Below are positions 1 through 64,000 of a DNA stretch of 64,000 bases, piece after piece (position 1 is the stretch's first letter; each line of letters starts with the position of its first letter). The DNA is from Antedon bifida (taxonomy: Eukaryota; Echinodermata; Crinoidea; Comatulida; Antedonidae), in NCBI GenBank assembly GCA_963402885.1, contig OY727101.1, positions 8,814,917 to 8,878,916 of the forward strand. The letters run 5' to 3'. The position numbers and the translations under genes are program-made. The notes beneath the pieces are model-generated. The model was not told the DNA's origin. It saw nothing but the letters and a program-made list of their open reading frames with translations, and did no database searches.

Positions 1-1954
1 CGTGGTAGTGACCCAATTGACATCATCACTACACCGGTTATAATGGTTGACTTTGGTGTGGCTCCTGTTGATGTTTTCTATGAAGAAGATCTTGTTAACA
101 ATCTTGCCAGTTTGGTATATATAATAAGTAAATAGCTTTCTTTAACCATATTAAAGTATCACATAATCTATCCAGATTTCTTCTTTTTTCAGTTTCATAT
201 GTTTAGAAATGAGTTGAATTTTATTTAATTACCTATTCTTTTAATATGTAAACAATAATTAATATTTTTTCCTTACAGGCAATTCAACCCTTGAACATGA
301 TGAGTTAGTTAACCTTCAAGCAGAAATTGTTAATGCAGCACAAACCGGTACTTTGTACGAGAGTCTTGAAGTTGAGGTTATTAGCAATGACCGATCCTTC
401 TCCCCCAGCTGAAGACCCAACAAGGGGTGTGAGAGCAACAAATACAACAGGAGGTCCAAGTACAGGCAATGAAACGTAAGTCACATTTTAAGAAGTAATG
501 AGTTGAAGTAGAGTTTTCTGTAGAGTTACTGTAGTATAGAACTGGCTTGTATCGTCTTGTCCAAAGTCTTAAATTGTATTCTCATGTGTGGCGTGCAACA
601 AACATAACCATAATGCCTATATCATTACAAACCAACATAACTAATTGGTTCACAGGTATTCTGAGAAGCAAGCTGAAGAAGAGGCATCTAGTGACCAAGG
701 AGTAGAAATCATCTATCAATTCCAAAGCACAATGAGTATACGTTTAAGGCTGATGCTATGGAGAACCATCCATTTGAGGTTCAGCCTTGCATCTCTATAT
801 TGGATACCAGTGTAGGTTTTAACACAATTCTTTCTAAACTCCAATATACTGTAGGCTATCAAGCTTTGGTAATACACCATAGGTTTGATACAAATATTCT
901 ACGAAAAAAAGGAATTATTCAATGATTTTTTGATTTTTTCAGGCTGAAATTGTGCAAAATCTGGGACATTCTTCACATCCATGGAAAATGCCCAGGAGTA
1001 TCTGATGCAGAGCTCGTCAACAACAACACTGTAGATATAATCCATGGCTGGGCCAATCTGTCGGGAAGTGGTTACTTCTTTGAATTCAGCATTGTTTATT
1101 CCAACTCATCCACGCTAGAAGGTATCAACTCAACAGAGTTTTCTGTCATTGAGGGTGTTTTCCACATATCAATCGCAGATCAACAGTAAAAGTTTTGGAG
1201 AAATTTAATGTTCAGTTTAATCTAATTGAAGATTTTACAACGGATATTGCAGAACATCTGGATTCCAAGGTTGGTGATTTTTTAATTAATTATAAGTCAT
1301 TTTCAAATTGTCAATGCAGTTCTCTCTCTAATTAACCATCCATCTTCTATTTAATACTGCATTATAATTCAAAAATCACCATCAATTGTAGACTAGTGAT
1401 GTATCCAATCTAAGAGCAACTTCTTTTTGAAGACTACAGTCCATTTCAAATATTCAATGCAGGTCTCCCTCTATTTAACCCACTACCTTCTATTAATACT
1501 TCCCCTACCCCAATTTTAAAAGCATCTTCAATTGTAGACTATTGTATCCACTCTAAGAGCAACTTATGTTGAAGACTAGCCAAAAGTACCTACAAGTCGA
1601 CACTCCCATAAAAATCCAATTACAGACTACTTTCAAATTTGATTTCATCGGCTGTATAAATCGCCTCAAATTAAAGACAAGCCAATAGCCAAGGACATAT
1701 CAACCTTGAAGAATTATAATGCAATTGCTGTAGTTGCGGGTGAAAACGATTTAAACACGGCACATCTTTTTAAAAAAAAAATAGGCATTGTTGCTGGTAC
1801 AATGCAAACTTCACTCTCACAAAGCATAAACACCTTAAAAACCAGAATCTCGCCAAAACCTAGATTATCTCAAAATATTTCCTGCCCTTTATATAGTCCG
1901 TACAGCTTATTACCCACACAGTACATATCTTTTACTTACCTGTTCTGCCAGTAG

Positions 1955-2832
1955 GTAATTGAAAAATCAGCAAATTTTGTCAAATTAACAAGTGGCAACA
2001 CTTGTACAGGTAAGAAGAATAAGAAAAACTTATTTTATTGTGTTTTTCTATAGGAGATAACCCAGAAGCCTAGAAGTAGAAATGAATACTTTTACAGGTA
2101 AGCTTTAATATAGTTTATAAACAAAGTATGTAAAATGAGAATACTTCTTTTGCTAATAGAAGAGACAATTCCAGAGTGCCATAAAATCAAGACCATATAT
2201 TTGTTGTTTTAAACATGGAAAAAAATTTTATGGTAGATCTTAAGTTCTTCAATGCAATCCGTGCAATCAAAGTACTTAATGTACAGATAGATATTAGAAA
2301 TATATTAAATTGTTAACTTTTCTTTTATTATTGATCAGCAGATGAAACTTTTAAAGAAGAAGAAAACATCACAGGTAAGCTTATAAAACATTACTAATAA
2401 AAATCTATACCAGCTGGTGCTGAGGTGAGGTGAAATTAAGATTGACTCTTTCTATGAAGTTCTTTTTTAGTGTTAAAATTAATTAATCCATGTCCCATTT
2501 TCCATTCCAATCTGTCCCTGTGTCATAAGAAATGTTTAAGAGTTGTGCAACTGTAGATGCCGGAAATGGCACTTATCAGACACAAATTAGATTTTCGTAA
2601 ACATTACATTCTTAACATTTTATTGTTGTTTATCAGCAGATGATGCTGATAGTTATGGACAACTAGAAATTGCCACAACATCAGGTAAGTCTACTACAAT
2701 ATTAGCAGCAAAACATTTGAAAACACAAATGTACAATGTATCAAGAACGAAAATGTATAAAATATTAATGTTATAAATTGTTTTTGTTTACTACTATAGG
2801 AGATGACCTATACAACCATGACGATCTCACAG
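1955..2832 (+). CDS. Acidic phase-1 micro-exon cluster (unit 1)
   Basis: Five small exons, each with an AG acceptor and a GTAAG-type donor: 1955-2009, 2054-2097, 2339-2374 (36 nt), 2637-2684 (48 nt) and 2800-2832 (33 nt). The last three are symmetric phase-1 cassettes. Each would begin with Ala-Asp or Gly-Asp and end in Thr-Gly or Ser-Gly, for example DDLYNHDDLT. The peptides are strongly acidic, like a cytoplasmic or linker tail. The second exon is 44 nt; one missing base after the GCC codon at 2068-2070 would explain its stop. The prediction rests only on splice sites and phase agreement. Confidence 0.55.
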
Positions 2833-3255
2833 GTAAGTTTATATTTAAAAAGGTTCGTTATTCACATGCCAAAGAGCATTCAATTGGTTAAAGAGCAGTG
2901 CATATATATGATTAGACTGGGTTCCAGCCCGTAAATAGTAAAGATAAATAATTTGGCACATATGGTATGATAACCTACGTCATTCTTATCGGATATTTGC
3001 GGGCATGCAAATCGATTTCTTCACATATTTCCCCAGTGCGTAAATCTGAGTATTATATTATACGTATAAAACGCCATATGTGCCAAAATTTACGGGCTGG
3101 AACACAGTCTCATATAGGATGGATGTCTGAGGTTGTCATATGTACCTGTAGGCCTATACTTCTGTATTTAAGCATTTTAATTGGAATATTGTTGAACATT
3201 AAAGGGAAAGAGATCAATATAGTGTTATTTTTGAACAAGTACAGTACTACAGTAG

Positions 3256-5336
3256 TTATAAAATACGGGCCGGTTGTTGGTCGCAAATATTCAATTTCTC
3301 GATTCCAAGTGGATAGCTGTTATGTGACATCAAAATAGGACAAATTTAGGACAAATACATCTGTAAGAGATGATAGAATAATTGCATTTTTGTTTTTCTC
3401 ATTTTGCAGGCAAGAAAGAGGTAGCGAAATTGTTGACATCAAATCCTGGATTCTCAATTCAAAATTGGATAATTATAAGGATGAAAGTTAAGAATGAAAA
3501 AATGATGCTGATGAGTTTTTGATTTTAAAAGGTTTGAAAATAGATATAACATAACGTATGTTAACGTTCTGATTGATATACTTGTTTTTAATAGTGTTAC
3601 CATATCAATTTGTCAGGCTGTTGCACCTAAGGGCGCGTTTATACAACACGCTATTACACGCATATTCAACACGCCTACGAGAAGTGTGTTCTATAACATC
3701 GAAGAGATTCCGTGTAATGAGATTTGAATTGCAAAAAAGGCTACTTGGCTGAATCCTAACATTTTGTGGATTCCCGGTTGCTGTTATTATTATAAATAAT
3801 AGTGTAATTTGATATTTGGGCTACAATAGTCTATAGATTATAGCATGGATTAATTAGTTTAAACTAATTGATACATGGTTATATACTACAAGTTGATCAA
3901 TTTGGAAATGTTTGCAATATTAAAAGTGTAATTTGATATTTGGGCTACAATAGTCTATAGCATGTATTAATTAGTTTAAACTAATTGATTCCGTAAATCT
4001 TCTAATTGTAACCCTGGGTTATTATTTTTTGATTGTTTTTTAGGGTGGGTTACTATTAGAAGTGGGGGGGGGGAAGGGGGATTCCTATTGGAGTAGTGGG
4101 TTATTATTACTAATCTTAAATTAGGCACCTGTAAATAGTAAGGCACCTGAAAATAGTAACCCACCCCAACTTTTCCGGTCAGCAAATCATAGAAAAATAA
4201 TAAAACAGTACGAATAAATAAATTTCTTTGAACTTTATTTTATAAACTCAAAAACACTCAGTCCTCCCGAGATCAACATGCATTATCTCCTTATTTTCAA
4301 AATATTGCTGCATAATAAACGACCAGTCTTAATGTCATTTTTTCAATAGTTTTTGTGACTCTAATAATAACCTCCCCCATGGGTTACTAGTAGTAGTAGT
4401 GGGTTATTATTATAGATTGACTTATAAGTTGGGTTACTACTAGAAGGGGGGTTACTATTAGAGTGTGGGTTACTATTAGAATTGACGGTACATGGTATAA
4501 TACAAGCTGATCAATTTGGAAATGTTTACAATATTAAAGTGTAATTTATTAAGTTATTCAGTGATTAAATATTTCAAAGTATTTCAGCTAGAATGTCAAT
4601 GTTTCTAATTTATTTTTCTTTACATTATGATCATTTATTTATACAAAAAAATCATCACATATAAGACAAGAACAATTGTCCTGTAATTGATCCTGCTGGA
4701 GATAGATTTCATACATGTAAAAAACGTCAAATGTTTTTTAAAAAATTACCGGTATGAATATGAAAATATGAAGCACAATTAGTGTAGTATGTTCCCTAAT
4801 AAAATTCTTAAATTTAATACTGTAACAGACTGAAATTAGGAACTAACCAGTGTATGTTAGATTCAATTAATAGTATTCCTAACACAGTACATTACTGTAG
4901 CAGCTTTGAGCGAGTAGCCAGATTTCTAATTCTTACATGATTGTACAGTAGAACAAATCATCAATAAAATAATCCAATACTTTTACTGGATTTGAACATC
5001 AGATGAATCTCTGATGAATCTAAAGATGTTAAAAACCACATGGACAATTGTTATTTAAATATTTTCAACGTCATGACAATACAAATTACATATTTAGAAT
5101 ATGACATCAACTAAGAACAATATAGCCATAGAAAATGAGAAAAACTGCAACCAGCTGCCCAAGAACATTTACTCCATCAACACATCAGACACTAGGCCTA
5201 TATGAAAAGGAAAAAGACATTATTAATGTCAACACAACGAGTACCAGACAACATAACTCTTTTGGGATCATTTCAGCCACCAGTTATTGCGGCCGTCAGT
5301 TATGCCAGTACATTTTTTTTTAAAATTTATTTTACA
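3256..5336 (+). repeat. 2.08 kb tandem duplication, left copy (unit 1)
   Basis: Starts at TTATAAAATA and ends at TTTTACA, where the right copy begins. It carries the terminal exon, 3' flank, a G-rich stretch (4040-4480) made of GGGTTACTATTAGAA-like motifs with a homopolymer G run, and a local direct repeat (GATATTTGGGCTACAATAG at 3811 and 3934). No other gene is visible. Confidence 0.93.
3410..3522 (+). CDS. Terminal exon, first copy (unit 1)
   Basis: The acceptor TTTTGCAG is followed by a phase-1 continuation that reads GKKEVAKLLTSNPGF and ends in TGA at 3520-3522, 37 residues in all. The phase matches the upstream 33-48 nt cassettes, so it is the likely 3' coding end of the PKHD1L1-like copy. 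It shows no recognised domain. Confidence 0.5.
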
Positions 5337-7421
5337 TTATAAAATATGGGCCGGTTGTTGGTCGCAAATATTCAATTTCTCGATTCCAAGTGGATAGCTG
5401 TTATGTGACATCAAAATAGGACAAATTTAGGACAAATACATCTGTAAGAGATGATAGAATAATTGCATTTTTGTTTTTCTCATTTTGCAGGCAAGAAAGA
5501 GGTAGCGAAATTGTTGACATCAAATCCTGGATTCTCAATTCAAAATTGGATAATTATAAGGATGAAAGTTAAGAATGAAAAAATGATGCTGATGAGTTTT
5601 TGATTTTAAAAGGTTTGAAAATAGATATAACATAACGTATGTTAACGTTCTGATTGATATACTTGTTTTTAATAGTGTTACCATATCAATTTGTCAGGCT
5701 GTTGCACCTAAGGGCGCGTTTATACAACACGCTATTACACGCATATTCAACACGCCTACGAGAAGTGTGTTCTATAACATCGAAGAGATTCCGTGTAATG
5801 AGATTTTAATTGCAAAAAAGGCTACTTGGCTGAATCCTAACATTTTGTGGATTCCCGGTTGCTGTTATTATTATAAATAATAGTGTAATTCGATATTTGG
5901 GCTACAATAGTCTATAGATTATAGCATGGATTAATTAGTTTAAACTAATTGATACATGGTTATATACTACAAGTTGATCAATTTGGAAATGTTTGCAATA
6001 TTAAAAGTGTAATTTGATATTTGGGCTACAATAGTCTATAGCATGTATTAATTAGTTTAAACTAATTGATTCCGTAAATCTTCTAATTGTAACCCTGGGT
6101 TATTATTTTTTGATTGTTTTTTAGGGTGGGTTACTATTAGAAGTGGGGGGGGGGGGGGAAGGGGGATTACTATTGGAGTAGTGGGTTATTATTACTAATC
6201 TTAAATTAGGCACCTGTAAATAGTAAGGCACCTGAAAATAGTAACCCACCCCAACTTTTCCGGTCAGCAAATCATAGAAAAATAATAAAACAGTACGAAT
6301 AAATAAATTTGTTTGAACTTTATTTCATAAACTCAAAAACACTCAGTCCTCCCGAGATCAACATGCATTATCTCCTTATTTTCAAAATATTGCTGCATAA
6401 TAAACGACCAGTCTTAATGTCATTTTTTCAATAGTTTTTGTGACTCTAATAATAACCTCCCCCATGGGTTACTAGTAGTAGTAGTGGGTTATTACTATAG
6501 ATTGACTTATAAGTTGGGTTACTACTAGAAGGGGGGTTACTATTAGAGTGTGGGTTACTATTAGAATTGACGGTACATGGTATAATACAAGCTGATCAAT
6601 TTGGAAATGTTTACAATATTAAAGTGTAATTTATTAAGTTATTCAGTGATTAAATATTTCAAAGTATTTCAGCTAGAATGTCAATGTTTCTAATTTATTT
6701 TTCTTTACATTATGATCATTTATTTATACATAAAAATCATCACATATAAGACAAGAACAATTGTCCTGTAATTGATCCTGCTGGAGATAGATTTCATACA
6801 TGTTAAAAACGTCAAATGTTTTTTAAAAAATTACCGGTATGAATATGAAAATATGAAGCACAATTAGTGTAGTATGTTCCCTAATAAAATTCTTAAATTT
6901 AATACTGTAACAGACTGAAATTAGGAACTATCCAGTGTATGTTAGATTCAATTAATAGTATTCCTAACACAGTACATTACTGTAGCAGCTTTGAGCGAGT
7001 AGCCAGATTTCTAATTCTTACATGATTGTACAGTAGAACAAATCATCAATAAAATAATCCAATACTTTTACTGGATTTGAACATCAGATGAATCTCTGAT
7101 GAATCTAAAGATGTTAAAAACCACATGGACAATTGTTATTTAAATATTTTCAACGTCATGACAATACAAATTACATATTTAGAATATGACATCAACTAAG
7201 AACAATATAAAAATAGAAAATGAGAAAAACTGCAACCAGCTGCCCAAGAACATTTACTCCATCAACACATCAGACACTAGGCCTATATGAAAAGGAAAAA
7301 GACATTATTAATGTTAACACAACGAGTACCAGACAACATAACTCTTTTGGGATCATTTCAGCCACCAGTTATTGCGGCCGTCAGTTATGCCAGTACATTT
7401 TTTTTTTTAATTTATTTTACA
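5337..7421 (+). repeat. 2.08 kb tandem duplication, right copy (unit 1)
   Basis: Near-identical to 3256-5336; the homopolymer G run is longer here (near 6145). It brings a second terminal exon at 5491-5603. An AATAAA lies just beyond its end near 7451 and could serve as a poly(A) signal. Confidence 0.93.
5491..5603 (+). CDS. Terminal exon, second copy (unit 1)
   Basis: Duplicate of the exon at 3410-3522, with an intact acceptor (TTTTGCAG), the same 37-residue frame and TGA. It could be a mutually exclusive alternative last exon or simply unused. Confidence 0.4.
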
Positions 7422-8029
7422 TGTGCCAATAAGTATGTGTGATTTTTATAAATAAAGTTGTTTTGTTTCCGTTTTGGTTTTATTCTGCAAATTGTGGTTT
7501 TTTAAATGTTGGAAATTAGTTTATTTATTATTAGTTACCATTACCAATATTAATAATTAATATTCATTTTATCGATAACAGGATTATGGTTTCTGTATCA
7601 AGTTATAAACTCCAAGTGCATAAGAAATGAAGAAGTACAATTAAAAAAACAAGAAATATTGTGTTTATGAGATGAGCCTTGTTGTTTGGGGTATCATGTA
7701 TAATAATGATATGCAGAAATAAGAAAAGAAATATACGATTAATTATTATAATTAATCATTAAAACTAGATGTTAGATTAGTAAAATTTGTTTTGTATTAA
7801 GACACATTGATTAGTATTTATCGGCTGTTTAATAATTAATTAATATTTACTATATTCATAAAAACATTGCGCGGCTGATACTTGACTAGATACTAAACTA
7901 GTTTAATGGCCATTTAGTTCTGTGTTTATTTATGGCTATTTGGAGGCCTCCTTTTGTTTGGTGCGCATACAAAAGTGGGCCCGATCATCCGTTTAACACC
8001 CATACGCGAATCCTGGGCGAATATCTACT
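7422..8029. other. AT-rich intergenic stretch
   Basis: No coding, RNA or repeat structure recognised apart from short AT palindromes (ATTAATTATTATAATTAAT near 7740). Confidence 0.5.
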
Positions 8030-8320
8030 AGGCCTATTCTAGGCCTACCTAGCTAGGCTTAGGCTAGGGCCTAGCCTAAGAAAGATAAGCTAAATAGGCC
8101 TAGCTAGGCCCCTAGGCTAGTTATTTAATTTTGGCCCTAATTAATAGCGATATACAGTACTATATGCGGCGACTATAATAGGCTAGGCCTAACCTTTTAG
8201 CTTAGCTGACTAGGCCTATGCAACTAGTTTTTAAAATTGGTACCAACTCACCTCACGCCCAGCCAGGCGGCAAAGGCCGCATCACTTAGACCTAGGCTAG
8301 GCCTTCTAGGCCTTCCTAGA
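8030..8320. repeat. AGGCCTA palindrome cluster (unit 1)
   Basis: Dense overlapping TAGGCCTA, CCTAGGC and CTAGCTAGG words. The small open frame across it (8237-8446) is low-complexity repeat and not a gene. Matching cluster at 38203-38515. Confidence 0.85.
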
Positions 8321-9002
8321 ATAGAAGACACCGACAACAAATTAAAAGACATGCCTCTAGGACCTAGAATTATTTATAAATTTGGTGAAACAGAATTTAA
8401 CCATTTAATTATTTTGTTTTATATAAATTGTAGCCTTAAGGATTGACAGAAAATAAACTTAGATAGGGGTCAATCGGTTGATTTTACTTCCCTCTTTTTA
8501 GTGTAAAATGGCCTTAAGGGTAATAATAAATTCCCCTTAGCACAGCGATTGTGGTATGAAAACGTTAAGGGGAAAGACAAAAAGGGTTATATCTGCCAAT
8601 TTACCTACAAAATAAAAAAAAAGTTTGTATCGTAATTGGAATCATTAACATATAATTATGTTGAAACGCAAAAAAGAATATATTTAGCCGATATTTTGGT
8701 TTTAAACGGTTGGAATACCATCTTTCCCACTACACCTGTACAAAGCCATTTGCATAACAACGCCGACATACCACCACCAACGATGAGATATAAATTCTTT
8801 TCTAAACACGTAACGAAGAGAACTATAATTCCTTTTTTTCTGACATTCAATTGTTAGTCATTCGCGGCGGTCAACGCGCCACACTGTTGAATTTTGATGT
8901 TGTTAATCTTTTACATTATATTATTCTAAATTAACCTGACTCTCTAAATATCTCTCTTTCAAAATAAAAGAAAAGCATTTTATATTTATTTAAAAAAAAA
9001 AA

Positions 9003-9090
9003 GAAATCCGTAGAGATTCGAACCCCAGCCAGTAGAGCTGAGAGAATACAATCCAAACGATAGTTACTAGAGCACTACCCGTTATGCCAC
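9003..9090 (-). repeat. Degenerate tRNA-like sequence (unit 1)
   Basis: On the minus strand it has an A-box-like TGGCATAACGGGTAG and a B-box-like GGTTCGAATCT, followed by a T-run. The acceptor arms do not pair well, so I read it as a tRNA pseudogene or a SINE head. Confidence 0.4.
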
Positions 9091-9237
9091 AATGTACACG
9101 AGTAATAAAAGGTGACAATAGTATAGTCTTATACGCGCTTCATATTACGTCATTCTAATCGTTACGTCATAAATTTGCATATTCATGACGTACTTTTGAG
9201 GAAACGAATCTAGTTTTAACCTTGCTATTAACCAGAG

Positions 9238-9540
9238 GGCCGGATAGCTCAGTTGGTAGAGCGTCGTGGAACACGATTATCGTGGGTTCAAACCCCATGC
9301 CGGTCGGTGGAAAAGAGTTAAAGCTATGCGAGCTTCTGTGTTTGGGGTTCACAGACTTAAACGTCCCCCTTTCCACCACACATTATGAGGCAATAACATC
9401 AAAGCATCTGATGTGTGGTACCCCCAAGGCTGTGAGAGAGCCTTACCGTGCTAGAGGCAAGGGAGCACACCATCATTTTTTTTGGCTTCCCGCCTCTTTC
9501 CGATCTCGTAAATGTTATGTTTGGCGCCCTCAATTTTAAG
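9238..9540 (+). repeat. tRNA-derived SINE (unit 1)
   Basis: The head, 9238-9305, has GGCCGG pairing with CCGGTC, a typical A box (TAGCTCAGTTGGTAGAGC) and a B box (GGGTTCAAACCCC). The region between the D and T arms is too short for a normal anticodon arm plus variable loop, so this is not a functional tRNA gene. A ~235 bp unrelated tail follows (CTTACCGTGCTAGAGGCAAG region). The 105-codon frame across it is repeat-derived. Confidence 0.65.
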
Positions 9541-10090
9541 AACACCTAAGTTATGTCAGAAAATTAGGAACAAATAAATAGAAATGTGTAAAGATGCCGA
9601 TGCCTAGCCTGGCTAGTGTATTCTCTCTATTTATTTAAATACATATGCATTATTGTAATAAATAATTTCACAATTTCTGTGTGAATTATTAACTTTGAAC
9701 AAACGAACATTATTCCAAACCATGTACTACATTTTACTGTGTTTGATCATGAATAAATGAAATGAATTAAGTGAATAATTGATCATGAGAAATCAAAACA
9801 ACTGATACAATGAATTACATGATGAACAACAGCAGCCATCCAACCAACCCATTGATTGCTACTCCTATACAAATATTGATCAGTTGGTATGCCGTGCGTT
9901 ATTATGCAAATGAGTTGGTGCAGGTGTAGTGGGGAAGATGGTATTGTTATTCATTGCGGTCAACACGCCACACTGTTGAATGTTGATATTGTTGATTATT
10001 CAAATCTTGTAAGAAAAACTATTTCTCCGGGCGGGAACCTAGCAGATCCCCTCATTTAGTTTGAAAGAAATCCATCTGGAAAAGATCTAC
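9541..10090. other. Intergenic, nothing recognised
   Basis: AT-rich sequence with stops in all frames. A short phrase around CAACACGCCACACTGTTGAA (9961) is also seen near 8872, which suggests an old dispersed fragment. Confidence 0.4.
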
Positions 10091-10580
10091 ACACATGTTC
10101 TAGCTATTCCAAATCCATTATAAAAATAATACCATTTATAATGCAAATGGCGAATGTAAAAAAAAACAGACGTTAAGGCGAAATCGCAAAATTATATTTG
10201 TTGACAAATGTTATGGACATTTTAATTCACGTTCATTCCCCTGATATAGTATAGTTTAAACTACACACTGTTCTAGCTATTCCAAATCCAGTATAAATTA
10301 TAATACCATTTATAATGCGATGTAGGCCTAGGCCTAAATGGCGAATGTTAAAAAAACAGACGTTAAGGCGAAACAGTAAAATTATATTTGTTGACAAATT
10401 TTATTGAAATTTTAATTCACGACTGCTTTAATCTCACTCTTCCCTGATATAGTGTAGTCAAAACTACTATCACACATGTTCTAGCTATTCTAAATCCACT
10501 AAAAAATAATAATACCATTTATAATTTGCAATGTAAATGGCGAATGTTAAAAAAACAGACGTTAATAAGGCGAAATAGTA
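10091..10580 (+). repeat. Three-copy ~190 bp tandem repeat (unit 1)
   Basis: Copies start near 10091, 10264 and 10471. Each carries TTCTAGCTATTC, ACCATTTATAAT, TGGCGAATGT and CAGACGTTAA in the same order. Copies have drifted, so the array is older than the 30 kb amplification. Confidence 0.85.
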
Positions 10581-11560: not shown

Positions 11561-12240
11561 GCGAGAGAAATTGGCCTAACGGGTAGGCCTAGGACTTGTA
11601 GTGTGGGGGGCCTAGAAAGTCAAGCAGAGTGCCTCGGCCAACCTACGTTCCCTAGTAGGTAGAATGTTAATTTAGACCAGGCCATTTTTAAATAGGGCTG
11701 TATAGCGGAAATAGTTCTGGTGGTTCTACTTATATTTATTTGTATTAAATGATTTACCAAATCCTATACTTATACTACCTTAACATAAGAATTAGTAATA
11801 AACTAATAATTACTTCTACGGGAAAATATTTTATATCGACGGGGCAAAAAATATCTGCATTCTTTAAACAATAAGTTGACGAGTCTCAAAAAGTGTGGGC
11901 CTGCACGAACCTCCTGCGGGGAAGTTTGATTTCGGCCTAGCCTAGGCCTAGGCCTAGCTGGCCTATCCGTTGTATTGTATTGTATAGCAATACACTTTTT
12001 ATACTTAGCTAGGCCTAGGCCCCTAGCTAGTAGTTTTTTTATTGGCATGTGGAAGGATGTCTTCGTATCAAATTAGCTTTGGATACAAATTGTTTTTTTT
12101 AAGGTAAAGTGGTTGCAACAATAGAATAGGCCTAGGCCTAGGCCTATCATAATAATAGGCCTAGGCCTAGTATTAGCTCTAGGCCTACTAGGCCTATAGT
12201 CTATTATAGCTCTAGGCCTAGTTAGGCTAGCTAGGCCTAT
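11561..12240. repeat. AGGCCTA-rich region (unit 1)
   Basis: Clusters of CCTAGGCCTAGGCCTAG words at 11935-12020 and 12125-12235. The count differs from unit 2, where part of the run near 42290 is shorter, which fits replication slippage. Confidence 0.8.
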
Positions 12241-12290
12241 ATGACAGATCTGTTTTCTTCTTCTTTCTTTTATGGGAATGGGTTACAAAA

Positions 12291-13560: not shown

Positions 13561-13561
13561 A

Positions 13562-52242: not shown

Positions 52243-54050
52243 GAGGACCAGAATAATACATTATAATAACACAGGTTGTGTTAAAATACTTCTATAAAGG
52301 AACATTCTTACATTGGAAAGTGTTAGTTCTGTAATTGTAACTTTTTTTTCCCTGAGGTTTTTGTCTGGTACTTATTCATTCGATAGTGACACTTATTTAT
52401 TTGTTTCAGATTATTATGAGCCACATTATTCAGTTGCTTTCTTGGATATTGGAGAAGTTACTGTAGAAAGTCCATCGTTTGTACGTGAATATACATTTCA
52501 TAATGGCTTCAGTCCTGCTATCTGGATGCAATTCAGGATAATGTAATTCACCACACAGTTGGAGCAGGTAAGCAATACCAAAATACTTCTCTTTTCCTTA
52601 TATAGTAACTTACATTTTAGATTTTAGACAACAACATTGGGGTGATGCCATTTGTCATTGGGCCATCTTCTCTTAGTCATGAAGCTGTTGATAAGTATGT
52701 GTGAGAATGTAGTCATCGTTTATAATTGGTACAAGCCTGTTCTTTGATTGCGATGAGTTACAGGTAGGTTCAGTAAGAATATAAACATTTGTAGCATGTT
52801 ACAAACTGAATACTGTAATTAAGCAATTATGATGAATTAGATTAGATAATGTATAAATGTAAAAATCATGATGAATGGAACAATGTTAATGACGATGAAA
52901 TAAAAGTGGGAAACCCAAAAAAGACACAAAAAAAAGATATAAACATTTTCAATAAATATGAACATTTTTATTATTCATTTTAAAAGATTTTATTTCTGTT
53001 TTTCAAATGTTATTATTTTGTCAGTTTGGGGAACTATATTTTGCATTCTGTCAAATAAAATCAATGTATAGATATTATATATGCATACTTGACTTTCATA
53101 AGGAAATTTGTCAAAGGACTTTCTTACTCTTCTACCTTCTTTTTCTTAACGTGTACTGATAATGCCATTCCATTGTGTAATCAGTCACGTAATTTATAAA
53201 TTCTGATTAAAATATTACATTTTCCCATTAACATTTTCATGTAAGTATTTCAGAATCAACCGGAGAATGCAGGTCAAAGTGCAAAACAGTGTGCACCTTG
53301 TGGTCCAGACAATGGAAATGCTGGATACGTGAGGGCAAATTTCATGTCTGGTGATAATGGTGCTCCATTTTTTCCATTTCATGGTATACATAATTACCCA
53401 GCTATTGCTGGAAACACAAGATTGCAAGGTATGTAAAAGCATGACATAATCTGGTCCTTACTTGGACAAACCTAGTCCTTACTTGGACAAACCAGTTGAG
53501 TTCTATTGCAGGAAACGCATACTCATACTGTTTACACATGAAGCTGAATGCTTATTTGGATAACATAAAATTGCCATTGTATCCAAGTTATCACCACTGT
53601 AATGTTGAGGTTGTCCCTTAGTACTGTTTTATCATAAAATATGTCTTTAATATCGGAATACATTTTTGGTGAAACTTACCAAATGAATATATTTCAACAT
53701 ACTTATTTATTTACAAATAAAGGTATTTTGCTCTTTCTTATCAATAGATGTCACATTCGCTCATTTTGATACTGCGTGTAAGAAAGATCATTACGCTACT
53801 ATGACCAATCCATCAAATGATGATGGTATCCACCCAATGTCCGCTGTAGGTACTGTACAAAGAAGGTAACAGTCAGAGACAAGAACAGGGTTTACATACA
53901 TATACCTAATTTAGGGTAAGTACTAATAGTATTTATCCTATATATCTACGGACCACTTGCATTTATCCAAGTTACGTAAATGTAAATCATTGTGTATCCT
54001 TACTTGCTAGTTGCATTATTTTCATCAACCTAGTACACTTACCTACAATA

Positions 54051-54055
54051 CTTTT
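54051..54055 (+). repeat. Target-site duplication, left, of Ty3 copy 2
   Basis: CTTTT; its partner is at 60077-60081. The same 5-bp site as in unit 1 proves one original insertion. Confidence 0.92.
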
Positions 54056-54363
54056 TGTAATGTACCGATTTACAATACAAATAAGTGAGAGAGAGACAAG
54101 TTCTGTTATAGTTGAAAGCTAGCACTGAAGTGTTTATTCTTTATTCTACATCTACTATATATAATAACAATATCGGTAATGGGTAATTAATCTGTCAAGG
54201 TGGAATGTTTAGTGGTCTCAGCAGAGGGGTCTACTTTAGCCATTAGTGACCATTAAGTAGCCAGGGTTATATAGAAGTGGGTTAACATAATATATATGGT
54301 AACAGGTGAAGGAAGTATAAATAATTGGTAGCAAGTAATATTAATCAAGTTCAATACATTACA
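54056..54363 (-). repeat. 3' LTR of Ty3 copy 2
   Basis: 308 bp; differs from the 5' LTR at a handful of visible sites (for example CATCTAC/CATTTAC, a 2-3 bp indel in TATATATAATAA, GTCTCAG/GTCTAAG, an extra G). Confidence 0.95.
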
Positions 54364-54584
54364 TTCCCTCCCTTCTATTATAAACAATTCTAAGCTATTT
54401 ATTTATAATTGAATCAAAGCAGCACTGTACTAAGTTATGGTTTAATAACACTTTAAATGTATATGGTATAATGCACTGTATAAAGTAAAACATAAGATCA
54501 ACATTTTAAATTGTCCAGTAATAATGTCCATAAAAGTTTCTATATTTCAGTTATTAAAAATGTCCATATCTTTCCGGCGGTTTT

Positions 54585-54890
54585 CTATCGCGAGTAAGGT
54601 ATACTCTTCGCTGAGCAGTAATAGACTGTGCTTCGACAGTCGATTGTGATGTTTCCACTGTTCAGATTTGGATTAATGAGCATTGGAGGTAATTGTGGAG
54701 GATCATCTTTGTTTGTAAGCTGTTTATCCTGAGTTTGAACAGGCCTATAACGCTTCCTGATATGGTCGGCATGACGACGACAAACTCGTCCATCTTCTAG
54801 TTTTGTCTTGAATGAGATGCGACCGGATTTTAATATTATTGTTCCGGGTAACCATTTCAGATTTTGTCCTCTAAAGTTCTTTATATACAC
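54585..54890 (-). pseudogene. Integrase C-terminal domain (unit 2 only)
   Basis: Contains FRGQNLKWLPGTI and VCRRHADHIRKRY, a GPY/F-type integrase tail. Its last ~65 codons and the polypurine tract are among what unit 1 has lost. Confidence 0.8.
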
Positions 54891-55092
54891 CTACTCTCCT
54901 TCTGCAAAAGTGCGTTCTTTGCATGACGATCATGGGCTAATTTCTGTTTTTCAAGTTGAGTGATAACACGATCTGCTTGATAAGGGTGTAAAAGATCAAA
55001 ATGCGTTTTCAATTTTCGGCCATTCAGTAATTCTGCTGGTGTTTTGCCAGTTGTGCTATGAGGTGTATTTCTATATTTAAATAGGAATCTTG

Positions 55093-55289
55093 AATTGTTT
55101 TTTTTTTTAACTTTATTTGGTAATCAAGGTTAAAAAACAATAAAATATAATACATAGAAAATAGAAAAACAATTGCACGGAAAAAACAGGCCTTGATTAC
55201 AAGGAATGCCAAGAAAAGTTAAAAACTTATTTCCACTTGGGTCCTAAAAACAAGAAACTGATAACAAGAACATACAAATTACAACATAA
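55093..55289 (-). mobile_element. Non-LTR fragment nested in integrase (unit 2)
   Basis: Same insertion as 24168-24359, flanked by GAATCTTG at 55085-55092 and 55290-55297. Its 5' end differs from unit 1 over ~10 bases (ACTGATAACAAG against AAAGAAAG). Confidence 0.75.
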
Positions 55290-56593
55290 GAATCTTGCGA
55301 CTTTTGTTTCGATATATCCATCTTTCGTACGTTTCATTGTTTCTTTAAATGTGCGTACAGCACGTTCCGCAAGACCATTCGATGATGGGTGATATGGGGC
55401 TGTTAAAGAATGTCTTATTCCATTTCGCTTTACGAATGTATGAAATTCATCACTGGTGAAACATGTTCCATTGTCGGATACTATTTTATCTGGCAATCCA
55501 TGCGATGCAAATATAAGCCTGAGCTTATCCACTGTGGTATTTGTCGTTGAGGAATTTACCGGAATTACCTCAAGCCATTTTGAGTATGCATCGTATTAAA
55601 AACATTTTTCCAATAAATGGTCCAGCACAGTCGATATTTAATCGTGACCATGGTCTATTTGGCCAATTCCATGGGTGCAATGGTGCTTTAGGTGGTAAAG
55701 TTTGATTGGATTGGCATGTATCGCACTGCTTTGATATGTCTTTGTCCATATTAGGCCACCATAACGAATCCCGAGCAAAACTTTTCATTCTGACAATTCC
55801 AGTATGACCGTCATGTAGTGCTTGTAGCAACTGTTTTCTACCAGGCTGTGGAACAACAATTCTATTTTCCCACAAAATACATCCATCTTGTGTAGAGAGT
55901 TCTCTTTGTCAGATCCATCCAATATGGTTGCAAGTTTTCAATTTTTGGATTAGTATTGGGCCAACCCTTTTCAATGTAGTAAAGAACTCGAGAAAGTGTT
56001 GGATCTTTAACCGTCCAACCTTTAATATCTGCTGTGGAAACTGGAGATTGGTTCATTGGCTCCATCAATAGAACAGTTTCGGCAGGTTGTGGAATTGATT
56101 CTGGTTTTCCTGGCAATGGTAATCTGCTTAAGGCATCCGCATTGGCATGGGACTTTGTCAGTTTGAATCTTAATGTATATTTGTATGTACCTAATTTCAG
56201 TGCCCAACGTTGGATTCTAGCTGATGCTTGGCTGGGCACAAGTCTGTCCTCATTAATAAGACCCAGCAATGGCTTATGGTCTGTTACCAATGTGAAATGT
56301 CTACCATAAATGTAAGACTGAAATCGCGTTACCCCGAAAACGCATGCCAAACCTTCTTTCTCAATTTGCGAATACTTTTTTTCCGCTTCTGCAAGTGTTC
56401 TAGATGCAAATGCGATTGGTCTTCCTGTACCGTCACTTTGTCGATGTGCTAACACAGCCCCAATTCCATATTGAGATGCATCACACGATAATATTATTTC
56501 CTTTTTTGGATCATAATGTGCAAGTACTCTGCAGGAAAGTAGCAATTCCTTTGATTTATCAAAAGTAGATTGTTCTAAATTTGTCCAGTTCAA
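55227..56593 (-). pseudogene. RNase H and integrase region (unit 2)
   Basis: Three frames as in unit 1: 56593-55862 (RNase H), 55875-55570 (HHCC) and 55532-55227 (catalytic core). Confidence 0.92.
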
Positions 56594-56631
56594 AGCTTTA
56601 TCCTTACGAAGTAAGGCATATAACAGAGCAA

Positions 56632-58049
56632 TTAAGTGTGTTGGATAAGTTTGGTAAAAACTTCATAATAAGATAATAATCCCAAATAAGCTCTCAGTTC
56701 TGTCAAGTTTTGAGACGCTGGAGCATCTTTAATTGCTCTCACTTTGGCGTTTGTGGGATGCAATCCCTCTTTGTCGATCAGGTGTCCCAAATAACCAACA
56801 GATTTAACCATAAAAACACACTTACTCTTTTTTAGACGAAGTCCAGCATCTGCCAGTCGCTTTAGGACGGTTTCAAGAGTTTCGAAATGCTCAAAGTCAT
56901 TCTTTCCTGTAATTAATATATCGTCCAGGTATACTGTAACACCTTTAACTCCTTGTAATAGTCCTTCCATGACATGCTGGAAAATCGCTGGTGCTGAAGA
57001 GACTCCAAACGGCAACCGTGTATATTGTAAAGTCCCTTTTGAGTGTTGATTACAACATATTTTCGAGAATCTTTATCCAAGAGTAATTGTTGGTACGCTT
57101 GTGACATATGTCCAATTTAGTAAATTTTTCTTCGGGGCAAAGGATACTGATCAACTTTGGCTGCTTTATTTACAGTAATTTTGTAGTCACCACAGATCCT
57201 AATGGTAGATTTATCTGCCTTAAGTACCGGAACTATTGGTGCAGCCCAGTCTGAAAACTGTATAGGTTCAATAATGCCTTCTCGTTGTAAGCGATCAAGT
57301 TAGTCATCTACTTTCTGTCGCAAAGCATACGGAACATTTCTGGCTTTGCAAAATTTTGGCATTGTCTCTTTATCAACATACATTTTTGCTTCAGTACCCT
57401 TAAGGGTACCTAGTTCATCTTTAAATATTTCTTGGTATTTACCAAGCAGTGAACTTAAATCTAATTGGTTTATTACCTTGATTTGTTGCCAGTCCAACTT
57501 TATAAACTGAAGCCAGTCTCGACCAATTAGGGTAGGTCCATCTGTTCGCACAATCGTTAACGGTAATATTGTAGTAGTACTCTGGTATGTAACTTCAGCA
57601 TTAATTTTACCCAAAACATCCATTATTTGTCCAGTGTACGTACGTAGCTTAACTGACGAAGGTTCAAGTTTTCTTTCAGGCCATAATTGCCTAAATTTCG
57701 TCTGCGACATTATTGATACCGAGGCTCCTGTGTCAATTTCCATTTCAGTATCCAAACCCTCTAACAGTATCTTAACTTTCATAGGTGGAGGACTAGACGT
57801 GGTCTTTATTCCAAATAATTCTTCATACATTTCTGTAGCTATGTTGCTTGGTTCATCGCTTGGCTCATCTGCCACAACATTTTTAACTGTTTGGGGCTTC
57901 CCCTTCTTTTTGCTAAGACAAACAGATTGAATGTGTCCTACCTTGTTACAATAATGGCAAGTTGTTTGCTTAAAATAACATTTGTCTGGCAAATGGTTAT
58001 TCTTTCCACAGCGAAAACATGGTTTCGACTTCTTATTTGTATTTGACAT
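56632..58049 (-). pseudogene. Zinc knuckle, protease and RT region (unit 2)
   Basis: Counterpart of 25702-27119 with the same TAA (57300-57302) and the same two RT frame breaks; YLDD motif near 56930. Confidence 0.92.
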
Positions 58050-58710
58050 AACTAGTTTTTATGGCTTCATAAGATTATGTTAACACAATATATGTGCATA
58101 AATTGCAATATTATAGCATAATTATCGAATTTTTTTGCCATTTTTCGAAATAATTCCTTTTTTCCCCCGCATTGAAATTTTCGAAAAATGGCAAAATTTC
58201 GACCCTTTTATTTGTTTACATAACTAGTTACTATGGCTCTATAAGATGATGTTAACACAATATATATACATAAATGACAATATAATAGCATAATTATTGG
58301 ATATTAAAAAGTGAACATTTGCAAATTTTCGAAAAATTCTTTCGGTCCCCAGCAGTGAAATTTTCGAAAAATGGCCAAATACTTACCCTTTTATTTTTTG
58401 ACTTAACTAGTTTTTATGTCTCCATAAGATGATGTTAACACAATATATGTGCATAAATTGCAATATTATAGCATACTTATTGAATTTTAAAAAGAAGAAA
58501 ATTTGGCAATTTTTCTAAAAAATTCCTTTGGTCCCCCGCAGTGAATTTTTCGAAAAATGTCAAAATTTAGACCTTTTTATTTTTTTACACAACTAGTTAC
58601 TATGGCTTTATAAGATGATGTTACCATAATATATGTGCATAAATGGCAATATTATAGCATAATTCTTGAAGTTTAAAAAGTGGAAATTTTGGACATTTTT
58701 TGAACAATTC
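58050..58710 (-). repeat. Four-copy ~180 bp repeat inside gag (unit 2)
   Basis: Counterpart of 27120-27780; hairpin arms at 58137-58150 and 58179-58192. Confidence 0.88.
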
Positions 58711-59749
58711 CGTAAATTTTGACTTCTTTTTGTAAGCAATTTTGTTTACATTTTCAACTGCAGCTGCAGAGGTTGGCTGCGCCAGATCTCTTACATTTCT
58801 TGTTGCAGTTTCGATGCTAGTTGCAATTTCAACAGCTTTTTCCAGTGTCAGTGCTTTTTCTGCCAAAAGACCAAATTCCGTGATTACGGACGCCAAAAAC
58901 TAGATGATCTCGTAACATTGTATTGAGCGAGGCTCCAAAGTTACAGAATTCTGCCATCGATCGAAGCGATGCCATAAATTCAGGCACTGTTTCATTATCA
59001 CGTCGAAAGCGTGAGTTGAATTTGTATCGCTGTACAATTTCACTAGGCACATGGACTGTGATGCCCATTCATAGCTGTTACCAGCTCATCGAATGTTTTA
59101 TCCTTGGGTTTTTCTGGTGTAACCAAATTTCGTAAAAGCTTATAAGATGATGGGCCAATAACTGTTAACAGTGTTGCTTGTTTCTTCTCCTCTGTAGTAA
59201 TTTCTTTTGCCTTGAAATACAAGTTACTTACTTACTTATTTGTTTTCATAGCTATCCCCAATATTGGGGACATTTCGCCGTCATTGACATTATGTTGACA
59301 TTATAGCACAACTTTTCTTAATTTTATGAGAGACGTTAATTTTGATGAGAAGGTCATGGAACACTAATTAATTTTAAAAACAACTAAAAACCTGGGACCT
59401 GTAACCCTGACGGGTACTCTCCCTCCGGGTCAAAGGGATCCCGAAACTCATCGGTGGGCAGGGGCGCTCATCTCCCTGTTCAGGACTATTCCTGATGATT
59501 ACCCAACCTATTTACATTTAAAATTAAAATCAAACATCAAGACATAACTTAATCAACTTAATGACTACTGGACATAGTAGTTATTGTCTTCTATAAAAGA
59601 TGCTGGAAGCACTTCCTTATATAGTCTTCTTCTTCTGTCTGTTGTTCTTCTTCTTCCTCAGACTCTAGTCTAAAGTCTAAACGCTCAACAAACTGTGACC
59701 AATCTTCCCTTCCTTCAATAAATTCTTCAATTTTGCCAATAAGGGCCAT
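58621..59749 (-). pseudogene. Gag region with nested non-LTR fragment (unit 2)
   Basis: Capsid pieces 58621-59220, nested fragment about 59221-59670, N-terminus 59671-59749. Same breaks as unit 1. Confidence 0.85.
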
Positions 59750-59766
59750 TCTCGTCGCCACTGTAG

Positions 59767-60076
59767 TGTAATGTACCGATTTACAATACAAATAAGTGAG
59801 AGAGAGACAAGTTCTGTTATAGTTGAAAGCTAGCACTGAAGTGTTTATTCTTTATTCTACATTTACTATATATTATAATAACAATATCGGTAATGGGTAA
59901 TTAATCTGTCAAGGTGGAATGTTTAGTGGTCTAAGCAGAGGGTCTACTTTAGCCATTAGTGACCATTAAGTAGCCAGGGTTATATAGAAGTGGGTTAACA
60001 TAATATATATGGTAACAGGTGAAGGAAGTTTAAATAATTGGTAGCAAGTAATATTAATCAAGTTCAATACATTACA
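59767..60076 (-). repeat. 5' LTR of Ty3 copy 2
   Basis: 310 bp, same ends as at 28837-29146. Confidence 0.95.
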
Positions 60077-60097
60077 CTTTTCATTTAATCTTAACAG

Positions 60098-60288
60098 TAA
60101 AGTTAATCTTTCTGATTGCGTGGAGATGGATTGTGATGCATTTAAGAAAGCAATGATCAGAGATGAAGATGGTGGAATTCTAGGAGGATCACGGCCTGGT
60201 TATGTTATTCCTGATTCTCCATACGAGTGGGATAGAGATCCGAGACGTGGACTTAAAATTCCTTATGATGAAAAATGTCCACATAAAG
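60098..60288 (+). pseudogene. PKHD1L1-like: DCVEMDCDAF exon (block C, unit 2)
   Basis: 191 nt, open throughout, same sequence as 29168-29358. Confidence 0.85.
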
Positions 60289-60334
60289 GTTGGTTGTCTG
60301 CTTTAATGTTGAATTTTAGCTTTTGTAAACTGTG

Positions 60335-61000
60335 ATTCTTCCCTAAATCTTTCCTCCTATTAAAGTTGCACTCTTGAAACAAGACCAGTCCATTCACCGA
60401 AAATTTTTACGGATATGTACAGGAAGATTATTCCATAAGGTTGATGCTCTATAGTTAAACATTCTCTTTCCATAAATATTGTTCCATGCTGGAACATTTA
60501 GAGTTTTTGTTGATTGACTTCTTGTATTTTTTGTGTGAAAAGTGTCCATAAATTTGAATAGATTTGTTAAATAAGATGGTGCTAAACCCTGTAGGCATTT
60601 AAATAGCATAATTAATAAATCATTTTCCCATCTGTCATGGACACTCTTCCATTTTAGTGAGGACATCAATTCTGTTATAGGGGTGTACATATCAGCATAA
60701 AGAATGATTCTAGCTACTCTATTTTGAAGTACTTGAAGACGATTAACAAGTTCTAAGTTACAATTTGACCAAACATTACTACAGTAATCAAAACAAGGTA
60801 ATACTATTGCATTAGCAAGTAGTCTTAAAGCAAAATTTGGAATATAATATCTTAATCTACGAATAATACCGATACGTTGTGATACTCTAGAAGCTACTTG
60901 TTCAACATGCTGTTTCCATGACATAAGTGAATCAAATGTAAGTCCAAGATATTTAAAATTGTCAACTCTTTCGACATCATTGCCATTAATAGAAAGAGAA
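60335..61000 (-). mobile_element. 5'-truncated LINE, RT C-terminus (unit 2)
   Basis: Same 176-codon open frame (60924-60394) extended upstream to ~60999, at the same site as in unit 1. Confidence 0.88.
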
Positions 61001-62377
61001 ATATGGGTTCCAGAAGATCCAAACGATCAGTTCATGCCAACTCCTGACTCCAGCATTTATGGCGAGAACTATTTTGATCGCGATTGGCAGACTCTTTGGA
61101 TACTTATACGTGGTAGTGACCCAATTGACATCATCACTACACCGGTTATAATGGTTGACTTTGGTGTGGCTCCTGTTGATGTTTTCTATGAAGAAGATCT
61201 TGTTAACAATCTTGCCAGTTTGGTATATATAATAAGTAAATAGCTTTCTTTAACCATATTAAAGTATCACATAATCTATCCAGATTTCTTCTTTTTTCAG
61301 TTTCATATGTTTAGAAATGAGTTGAATTTTATTTAATTACCTATTCTTTTAATATGTAAACAATAATTAATATTTTTTCCTTACAGGCAATTCAACCCTT
61401 GAACATGATGAGTTAGTTAACCTTCAAGCAGAAATTGTTAATGCAGCACAAACCGGTACTTTGTACGAGAGTCTTGAAGTTGAGGTTATTAGCAATGACC
61501 GATCCTTCTCCCCCAGCTGAAGACCCAACAAGGGGTGTGAGAGCAACAAATACAACAGGAGGTCCAAGTACAGGCAATGAAACGTAAGTCACATTTTAAG
61601 AAGTAATGAGTTGAAGTAGAGTTTTCTGTAGAGTTACTGTAGTATAGAACTGGCTTGTATCGTCTTGTCCAAAGTCTTAAATTGTATTCTCATGTGTGGC
61701 GTGCAACAAACATAACCATAATGCCTATATCATTACAAACCAACATAACTAATTGGTTCACAGGTATTCTGAGAAGCAAGCTGAAGAAGAGGCATCTAGT
61801 GACCAAGGAGTAGAAATCATCTATCAATTCCAAAGCACAATGAGTATACGTTTAAGGCTGATGCTATGGAGAACCATCCATTTGAGGTTCAGCCTTGCAT
61901 CTCTATATTGGATACCAGTGTAGGTTTTAACACAATTCTTTCTAAACTCCAATATACTGTAGGCTATCAAGCTTTGGTAATACACCATAGGTTTGATACA
62001 AATATTCTACGAAAAAAAGGAATTATTCAATGATTTTTTGATTTTTTCAGGCTGAAATTGTGCAAAATCTGGGACATTCTTCACATCCATGGAAAATGCC
62101 CAGGAGTATCTGATGCAGAGCTCGTCAACAACAACACTGTAGATATAATCCATGGCTGGGCCAATCTGTCGGGAAGTGGTTACTTCTTTGAATTCAGCAT
62201 TGTTTATTCCAACTCATCCACGCTAGAAGGTATCAACTCAACAGAGTTTTCTGTCATTGAGGGTGTTTTCCACATATCAATCGCAGATCAACAGTAAAAG
62301 TTTTGGAGAAATTTAATGTTCAGTTTAATCTAATTGAAGATTTTACAACGGATATTGCAGAACATCTGGATTCCAAG
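61001..62377 (+). pseudogene. PKHD1L1-like: Block A proximal exons (unit 3)
   Basis: Exons 61001-61222, 61387-61583, 61764-61919 and 62051-62377; same frames and breaks as units 1 and 2. Confidence 0.75.
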
Positions 62378-64000
62378 GTTGGTGATTTTTTAATTAATTA
62401 TAAGTCATTTTCAAATTGTCAATGCAGTTCTCTCTCTAATTAACCATCCATCTTCTATTTAATACTGCATTATAATTCAAAAATCACCATCAATTGTAGA
62501 CTAGTGATGTATCCAATCTAAGAGCAACTTCTTTTTGAAGACTACAGTCCATTTCAAATATTCAATGCAGGTCTCCCTCTATTTAACCCACTACCTTCTA
62601 TTAATACTTCCCCTACCCCAATTTTAAAAGCATCTTCAATTGTAGACTATTGTATCCACTCTAAGAGCAACTTATGTTGAAGACTAGCCAAAAGTACCTA
62701 CAAGTCGACACTCCCATAAAAATCCAATTACAGACTACTTTCAAATTTGATTTCATCGGCTGTATAAATCGCCTCAAATTAAAGACAAGCCAATAGCCAA
62801 GGACATATCAACCTTGAAGAATTATAATGCAATTGCTGTAGTTGCGGGTGAAAACGATTTAAACACGGCACATCTTTTTAAAAAAAAAATAGGCATTGTT
62901 GCTGGTACAATGCAAACTTCACTCTCACAAAGCATAAACACCTTAAAAACCAGAATCTCGCCAAAACCTAGATTATCTCAAAATATTTCCTGCCCTTTAT
63001 ATAGTCCGTACAGCTTATTACCCACACAGTACATATCTTTTACTTACCTGTTCTGCCAGTAGGTAATTGAAAAATCAGCAAATTTTGTCAAATTAACAAG
63101 TGGCAACACTTGTACAGGTAAGAAGAATAAGAAAAACTTATTTTATTGTGTTTTTCTATAGGAGATAACCCAGAAGCCTAGAAGTAGAAATGAATACTTT
63201 TACAGGTAAGCTTTAATATAGTTTATAAACAAAGTATGTAAAATGAGAATACTTCTTTTGCTAATAGAAGAGACAATTCCAGAGTGCCATAAAATCAAGA
63301 CCATATATTTGTTGTTTTAAACATGGAAACAAATTTTATGGTAGATCTTAAGTTCTTCAATGCAATCAGTGCAATCAAAGTACTTAATGTACAGATAGAT
63401 ATTAGGAATATATTAAATTGTTAACTTTTCTTTTATTATTGATCAGCAGATGAAACTTTTAAAGAAGAAGAAAACATCACAGGTAAGCTTATAAAACATT
63501 ACTAATAAAAATCTATACCAGCTGGTGCTGAGGTGAGGTGAAATTAAGATTGACTCTTTCTATGAAGTTCTTTTTTAGTGTTAAAATTAATTAATCCATG
63601 TCCCATTTTCCATTCCAATCTGTCCCTGTGTCATAAGAAATGTTTAAGAGTTGTGCAACTGTAGATTTCCGGAAATGGCACTTATCAGACACAAATTAGA
63701 TTTTCGTAAACATTACATTCTTAACATTTTATTGTTGTTTATCAGCAGATGATGCTGATAGTTATGGACAACTAGAAATTGCCACAACATCAGGTAAGTC
63801 TACTACAATATTAGCAGCAAAACATTTGAAAACACAAATGTACAATGTATCAAGAACGAAAATGTATAAAATATTAATGTTATAAATTGTTTTTGTTTAC
63901 TACTATAGGAGATGACCTATACAACCATGACGATCTCACAGGTAAGTTTATATTTAAAAAGGTTCGTTCTTCACATGCCAAAGAGCATTCAATTGGTTAA
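61109..64000. repeat. Tandem unit 3 (partial, runs off the window)
   Basis: Matches 1-2890 and 30179-33070. At three sites near 2226-2297 units 2 and 3 agree against unit 1. At the A/T run near 1770 units 1 and 3 agree against unit 2. Unit 3 has a private change near 63667. Confidence 0.96.
63063..63941 (+). CDS. Acidic micro-exon cluster (unit 3)
   Basis: Exons 63063-63117, 63162-63205 (44 nt, stop), 63447-63482, 63746-63793 and 63909-63941, identical in phase to the other units. Confidence 0.55.

Follow-up and report, generated by a model that had tools for sequence, protein, structure and literature searches.

Decayed pieces of a PKHD1L1-like gene form a probable megasatellite beside putative centromeric repeats in the crinoid Antedon bifida

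Why should pieces of a PKHD1L1-like gene be repeated head to tail over tens of kilobases? This question is raised by a stretch of 64,000 nucleotides (the window) from Antedon bifida, positions 8814917-8878916 of the 21.9-Mb contig C14 (OY727101.1; assembly GCA_963402885.1, 315.6 Mb in 27 contigs), which an earlier interpretation made without database searches (the sequence-only reading) had described as a macro-array of ∼30-kb units. Our analysis indicates that the array is probably a noncoding, pseudogene-derived megasatellite that lies near putative centromeric satellites and has been amplified and shared between nonhomologous chromosomes.

The structure of the array was taken from a self-comparison of the window, which revealed two whole repeat periods, U1 (1-30178; 30.18 kb) and U2 (30179-61108; 30.93 kb), and then 2.9 kb from the start of a third (U3; 61109-64000), all on the forward strand and with their phase fixed by the window edge. 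Corresponding blocks matched in direct orientation at 99.42% (1-17168 versus 30179-47358), 99.58% (17165-23839 versus 47386-54071), 99.88% (23842-33069 versus 54767-64000), and 99.79% (1-2891 versus 61109-64000). The head-to-tail arrangement of ∼30-kb units that had been claimed was thus borne out, and it extends well past the window. At least three members had been predicted; the third is represented by 2.9 kb in the window, and outside it the array goes on along C14, a contig with 32 copies of a unit marker in all. The nested elements said to be common to successive copies recur in both periods, and the proposed recent exchange or homogenization fits the identity of 99.4 to 99.9%. Head-to-tail, kilobase-scale units of high identity, by which megasatellites and macrosatellites are recognized, are therefore present in this one assembly. 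Features that the sequence-only reading did not contain are two half-copies of the gene per period (A and B), their decay, and related blocks on other contigs.

These related blocks were located by genome-wide searches with short markers. A 25-mer specific for half-copy A, searched with up to one mismatch, gave 100 matches, all exact, on seven contigs (C8, 5; C9, 6; C11, 23; C13, 3; C14, 32; C15, 26; C16, 5), and half of the 32 copies on C14 (16) were located in its right arm at 8.467-8.892 Mb. Intervals of less than 45 kb between these markers (n = 81) had a median of 29.2 kb, and 64 of them measured 25 to 35 kb; 100 units of 29 kb amount to about 2.9 Mb, or near 0.9% of the genome. A second 25-mer, common to A, B, and the related genes on C7 described below, had 172 exact matches, and the 100 listed were distributed over C7 (2), C8 (10), C9 (12), C10 (2), C11 (33), C13 (5), and C14 (at least 36). 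A third 25-mer from the filler sequence, 5.3 kb before the A marker in the unit, had 105 matches; among the 100 listed, 99 were in the same blocks or within ∼0.1 Mb of them (C8, C9, C10, C11, and C13 to C16), and one was on C1. Since the filler marker co-occurs with the A blocks, whole units appear to have been dispersed, and not gene pieces alone. In total, unit markers clustered on eight contigs. The lone filler-marker copy at C1 16,477,700, around which no array was seen, is a possible donor of the filler.

C14 has two arms, one made of copies on the minus strand (7.70-8.13 Mb) and one of copies on the plus strand (8.47-8.95 Mb), and on C13, too, blocks of opposite orientation lie on either side of a satellite. 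One inverted duplication of the C14 arms was rejected, as on visual inspection the succession of spacings in one arm did not look like the reverse of that in the other. Likewise, no single orientation of the arrays relative to the satellite was found: the arrays on C14, C13, and C10 and the left block of C16 are directed away from it, and those on C15 and C9 and the left block of C11 are directed toward it. Five pairs of intervals that agreed to within 10 bp were counted within contigs (mean after jitter, 1.13) and four between contigs (mean, 3.39), and an interval of 25,146 bp was present in both C14 arms. This shared interval, together with the variable unit lengths, fits unequal exchange within arms.

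Could falsely joined haplotypes or misassembled repeats have produced an apparent array? Highly similar repeats are hard to assemble, the analysis is one of the assembly only, and among the 40 candidates scored out of 1,617, copies from C14 and C15 were about equally near to U1. However, haplotype joining would yield two copies, and by itself it cannot account for 100 A-marker copies and 86 copies of a retroelement junction (see below), each spread over seven contigs, in units that differ in length and in both orientations. We therefore regard an artifact as improbable, with exact copy numbers and block positions still unproven.

Relatives of the amplified gene pieces were found on C7, where two PKHD1L1-like genes at 8.37 and 8.42 Mb, both on the minus strand, are 96.7% alike over 14.4 kb; a third, more distant relative is located at 7.49 Mb. 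Both the 8.37 and the 8.42 gene match the array unit through exons and introns. The 8.37 gene contains TIG domains in three pieces, G8 (E value, 8.1e-23), and CEMIP_beta-hel (E value, 6.7e-52). G8 pieces were found at 7.49, 8.37, and 8.42 Mb, and the three of the 8.37 gene are without a stop. TIG repeats, two G8 domains, and beta-helix regions constitute the layout of PKHD1L1/PKHD1-like proteins. Judged by their domains, the C7 relatives are PKHD1L1/PKHD1-like, a designation under which PKHD1 and PKHD1L1 are not told apart; with this proviso, the proposed identity is supported by their G8, TIG, and CEMIP-type beta-helix regions. A search of the genome for G8 gave nine matches from 10 candidates (all scored), every one on C7 and none in the arrays, consistent with the claim that the 5' part is missing. 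The further claim, that the 3' end of the gene was amplified in tandem, holds insofar as 3' fragments form the array; the C7 genes themselves lie outside it, and what was amplified is their 3' part in copied, decayed form.

Half-copy A (16524-21617 in U1 and 46716-51853 in U2; plus strand) is such a decayed 3' part, with exons and introns collinear with C7. Half-copy B (22175-31794, interrupted; plus strand) begins within the same parent exon. Its first portion in U1 (22175-23823) precedes a long terminal repeat (LTR) retroelement; the region of parent exon 5 follows at 29147-29463 (60077-60400 in U2), and the distal part (30071-31794) spans the U1/U2 boundary, matching 1-1616 and, at the U2/U3 boundary, 61001-62724. 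Between parent exons 5 and 6, B contains an insert on the minus strand (29464-30070) whose open frame resembles the tail of a non-LTR reverse transcriptase; a Pfam search assigned no family to this frame. Because the introns are collinear with those of the C7 genes, the half-copies would have originated by DNA duplication, and an origin as a retrocopy was rejected.

The LTR retroelement in B has its open frames on the minus strand. In U1 it occupies 23824-29146, with a truncated left LTR and the right LTR at 28837-29146; in U2 it extends from 54056 to 60076, also on the minus strand, between LTRs of 308 bp (54056-54363) and 310 bp (59767-60076) that begin with TG and end with CA; its target-site duplication is CTTTT, which is present once at the corresponding site of the C7 gene. 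The LTR pair of the U2 element shows three substitutions at 307 sites, along with four gap columns. Protease, RVT_1, RNase H, and integrase families were recognized in pieces of the element, which by this domain resemblance is a putative Ty3/gypsy-like LTR retroelement. A 27-mer that covers the junction at the right-hand side, from the end of the LTR through the target site into the host flank, had 86 matches genome-wide, 85 of them exact, on seven contigs (C14, 30; C15, 26; C11, 20; C8, 5; C13, 3; C10, 1; C16, 1) and none on C7 or C9. Because the same junction occurs 86 times on seven contigs, the element probably inserted once into a single ancestral B and was spread afterwards. At C9 12.84-13.05 Mb, A and filler markers occur with no junction match, which perhaps reflects an earlier or otherwise distinct version of the unit. 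The element itself contains a tandem repeat of ∼186 bp (27204-27781) that also occurs at C7 7.475 Mb and C9 13.10 Mb.

Gene pieces and retroelement thus lie on opposite strands within repeated blocks, as might be expected if the arrays, similar to PIWI-interacting RNA clusters, yielded antisense or small RNA that silences the PKHD1L1-like genes or the nested retroelement. However, no result here points to transcription, and the coding cores diverge by about 5% from the gene, so that we consider such a role quite unlikely.

Decay of the half-copies was assessed by local alignment of 11 coding cores of the C7 8.37 gene with each copy. A1 (half-copy A in U1) had 22 frame-breaking gaps and one stop and B1 had 16 gaps and two stops, with identical counts in A2 and B2, respectively; gap counting overcounts at low identity, and the majority of gaps in A and B, whose identity is 76 to 97%, are expected to be genuine, although individual ones may not be. 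For exons 10 and 11 of the parent, the best matches in A and B were short and spurious, with no real counterpart, and several B exons were alignable only partially. When only exons 1 to 9 were considered, A1 had 19 gaps in 8 of 9 exons and B1 had 9 gaps in 6 of 9. The 8.42 paralog showed neither frame-breaking gaps nor stops in the same test. In matched segments, A1 differed from the 8.37 gene by 114 substitutions at 2,225 sites (5.1%) in coding cores and 112 at 1,270 (8.8%) elsewhere, and B1 by 81 at 1,694 (4.8%) and 123 at 1,496 (8.2%); end-to-end alignment of the 8.42 with the 8.37 gene gave 0.66% in coding sequence and 1.24% in the rest. Since the gap and stop counts are equal in both periods, the data suggest that decay preceded local amplification.

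These lesions bear on the idea that the array is functional and that its copies yield proteins or protein domains. Open frames of 90 to 160 amino acids persist, and the coding cores of A1 are closer to the parent than the rest (5.1 versus 8.8%), although constraint on the parent alone suffices to explain this. None of the A and B copies in U1 and U2 combined an intact frame with the full PKHD1L1-like domain set: frames are broken in most of exons 1 to 9 in both half-copies, with the same counts in both periods, exons 10 and 11 have no real match, and there is no G8 part. Because A and B have frame-breaking gaps and lack exons, coding by them is unlikely, and a functional protein array is, in our estimation, very improbable.

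How closely are the dispersed copies related? We compared ∼900-bp slices of 20 A copies, counting substitutions only and masking one tail; copies were retrieved via the exact 25-mer, which may favor less diverged ones. Relative to A of U1, no substitutions were found in copies from C9 (0/807), C15 at 10.25 Mb (0/866), C14 at 8.13 Mb (0/868), and C14 at 8.47 Mb (0/501; with an internal deletion), and two comparisons at C14 7.72 Mb gave 1 and 0 of 869. Copies from C16 (1/811 and 2/807), C13 (2/808 and 6/805), C11 (0.2 to 0.6%), and three further sites on C15 (0.35 to 0.5%) were only slightly more distant, and those from C8 showed 10/806 and 10/804. For comparison, B1 differed at 38 of 545 sites, and the two C7 genes showed 51/755 and 51/759. 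Ordered by substitutions, the distance from the gene to A and B is about 5 to 9%, that within the LTR pair is 3/307 (with wide error), and that between contigs is 0 to 1.7%. An independent gain of the array from the gene on each chromosome, in line with the lacking junction on C9 and the more divergent C8 copies, is very improbable, since a common filler and unit length and 0 to 0.75% substitutions from U1 outside C8 versus 6.8% to the C7 gene speak against it, and the one insertion junction on seven contigs refutes it unless later conversion spread the junction.

Between the two C14 arms lies a gap of 0.34 Mb, and three of three 10-kb samples from it consisted of an ∼87-bp tandem satellite with a longer-period structure. 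Beside the C15 array, at 9.48 Mb, 8.3 kb of a sample was the same satellite, and three of seven 500-bp samples were positive (C13 6.60, C11 12.05, and C16 10.90 Mb). A common satellite 30-mer had 24,572 matches; the 100 listed all belonged to C1, where 99 were located at 20.94-20.99 Mb and the remaining one at 8.54 Mb. The same 30-mer occurred 69 times in 41.5 kb sampled, which suggests a satellite total of roughly 13 to 15 Mb if the sampled density is typical. A rare variant with 20 matches was found on C9 (10; 12.26-12.69 Mb), C10 (3; 19.54-19.89 Mb), and C11 (3; 12.21-12.34 Mb) and singly on C7 (20.09 Mb), C12 (17.02 Mb), C13 (7.13 Mb), and C16 (11.74 Mb). A further variant had 245 matches, and the 100 listed were on C1 (1; 21.18 Mb), C7 (4; 19.86-20.77 Mb), C9 (3; 12.28-12.43 Mb), C10 (4; 18.96-19.89 Mb), and C12 (88; 16.17-16.74 Mb). 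The satellite was thus observed on C1, C7, and C9 to C16, in the case of C14 and C15 solely through the samples. Because it is mostly located at one internal place per contig, we infer that it is a putative centromeric repeat. Unit blocks adjoin the satellite or lie within ∼1.6 Mb of it on C9, C10, C11, C13, C14, C15, and C16.

Several observations weigh against a pericentromeric megasatellite shared between chromosomes. The satellite also occurs where no array copies were found (C1, C7, and C12), and the remaining four of the seven 500-bp samples were not satellite (C15 10.70, C8 25.15, C9 12.80, and C9 13.10 Mb). On C8, blocks are present without satellite seen, as one 500-bp sample was negative and two satellite-variant searches showed no C8 match among those listed, although this contig was barely sampled and the rare variant also misses C14 and C15, which have the satellite. 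C10 carries just one or two units, and C9 has A and filler markers without the LTR junction. When gaps are included, 1-kb copies from C8, C9, C11, C13, and C16 are only 96.8 to 97.0% identical to U1 A in the main segment. Moreover, aligned sites fall into two classes (about 804-811 and 843-869), both of which occur on C15, so that indel subfamilies exist but are not strictly chromosome bound. Copies differed on average by 0.24% within contigs (27 pairs) versus 0.59% between them (163 pairs; 0.40% over 127 pairs without C8; pair counts exclude B1 and the two C7 sequences), and none of 2,000 label shuffles reached this excess. The closer similarity within contigs argues for local homogenization atop wide sharing. 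As for the C7 relatives, an in-frame stop interrupts one G8 piece at 8.42 Mb and two at 7.49 Mb, so that intactness of these two genes is not implied. Finally, gap counts grow with alignment error, as the distant 7.49-Mb relative (65 to 77% in longer exons) scored 48 gaps and four stops.

For the pseudogene-derived megasatellite that we favor, the following course of events may be proposed. First, a DNA copy of the 3' portion of a PKHD1L1-like gene, with its introns, would have arisen away from the locus and decayed. Two half-copies, A and B, together with filler may then have formed a unit, and the LTR retroelement would have entered an intron of B once. The finished unit of ∼29 to 30 kb would have been amplified by unequal exchange beside the ∼87-bp satellite and either moved to, or homogenized among, pericentromeres of nonhomologous chromosomes, possibly via ectopic recombination or break-induced copying. 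More tentatively, and with clearly lower confidence, the host-gene fragment could have become a standard pericentromeric repeat of most chromosomes, homogenized between nonhomologues and across the satellite core, and hence part of centromere architecture and not passive debris.

Among known systems, the D4Z4, DXZ4, and RS447-type macrosatellites are likewise gene-related tandem macro-repeats of very similar units; their units measure about 3 to 5 kb and lie mostly far from centromeres. Human pericentromeric segmental duplications are mostly mosaics of many donors; here, in contrast, one unit forms long head-to-tail arrays. The human pericentromeric and acrocentric duplications (PMC12767296) are similar to the present case in that gene pieces are reported to have reached pericentromeres by DNA duplication and to have been exchanged between nonhomologues. 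Human megasatellites with interspersed LTR elements were the nearest described kind found: one family with LTR elements is reported to comprise more than 25 arrays on 11 chromosomes, and three of the largest arrays are pericentromeric (PMC2588610). Arrays on many chromosomes are common to both. The Antedon unit differs by its ∼29 to 30 kb containing two copies of the 3' part of one gene, by the 87-bp satellite near the blocks on seven of eight contigs, and by the blocks of opposite orientation that flank the satellite on C14 and C13. A literature search, judged by titles and with subscription papers mostly outside its reach, revealed no description of a PKHD1L1-derived pericentromeric array.

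The unit also contains several smaller features. In the filler, a 2.09-kb direct tandem duplication (99.04%) was found at 3256-7422 and again at 33434-37601; no Pfam family was assigned to the two open frames tested in it. A transfer RNA (tRNA)-like element on the plus strand (9238-9306 and 39409-39477; 43 bits, cutoff 29), at which ARAGORN found no tRNA genes, is probably a short interspersed nuclear element or a tRNA pseudogene. An 11-bp AT-rich minisatellite is located at 12316-12976 and 42474-43156. The AT-rich minisatellites at 12316-12976 and 14372-15274 have units of 10 to 12 bp and multiples thereof, based on TTCTATAGAA, and contain numerous inverted repeats. Other tandem arrays near the blocks are a ∼67-bp repeat (about 89 copies) at C14 8.96 Mb and a 24-bp repeat at C8 25.15 Mb. 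Elsewhere in the assembly, COX1 was located on C27; in this gene TGA is read as Trp, and a reading of AGA/AGG as Ser and of AAA as Asn agrees with conserved residues, which is suggestive of an echinoderm-type code.

Pericentromeres of nonhomologous chromosomes are thought to exchange DNA, and there are few markers by which such exchange can be traced. The unit described here would record an ordered series of events, from gene copy and decay through one retroelement insertion to amplification and spread. The C7 genes provide an outgroup, the two LTRs an internal clock, and the dispersed blocks can be used as tracers; with these, a single animal could suffice to estimate how much exchange takes place inside the arms, over the satellite, and from one chromosome to another, and relatives of Antedon bifida would reveal the speed at which such arrays turn over.

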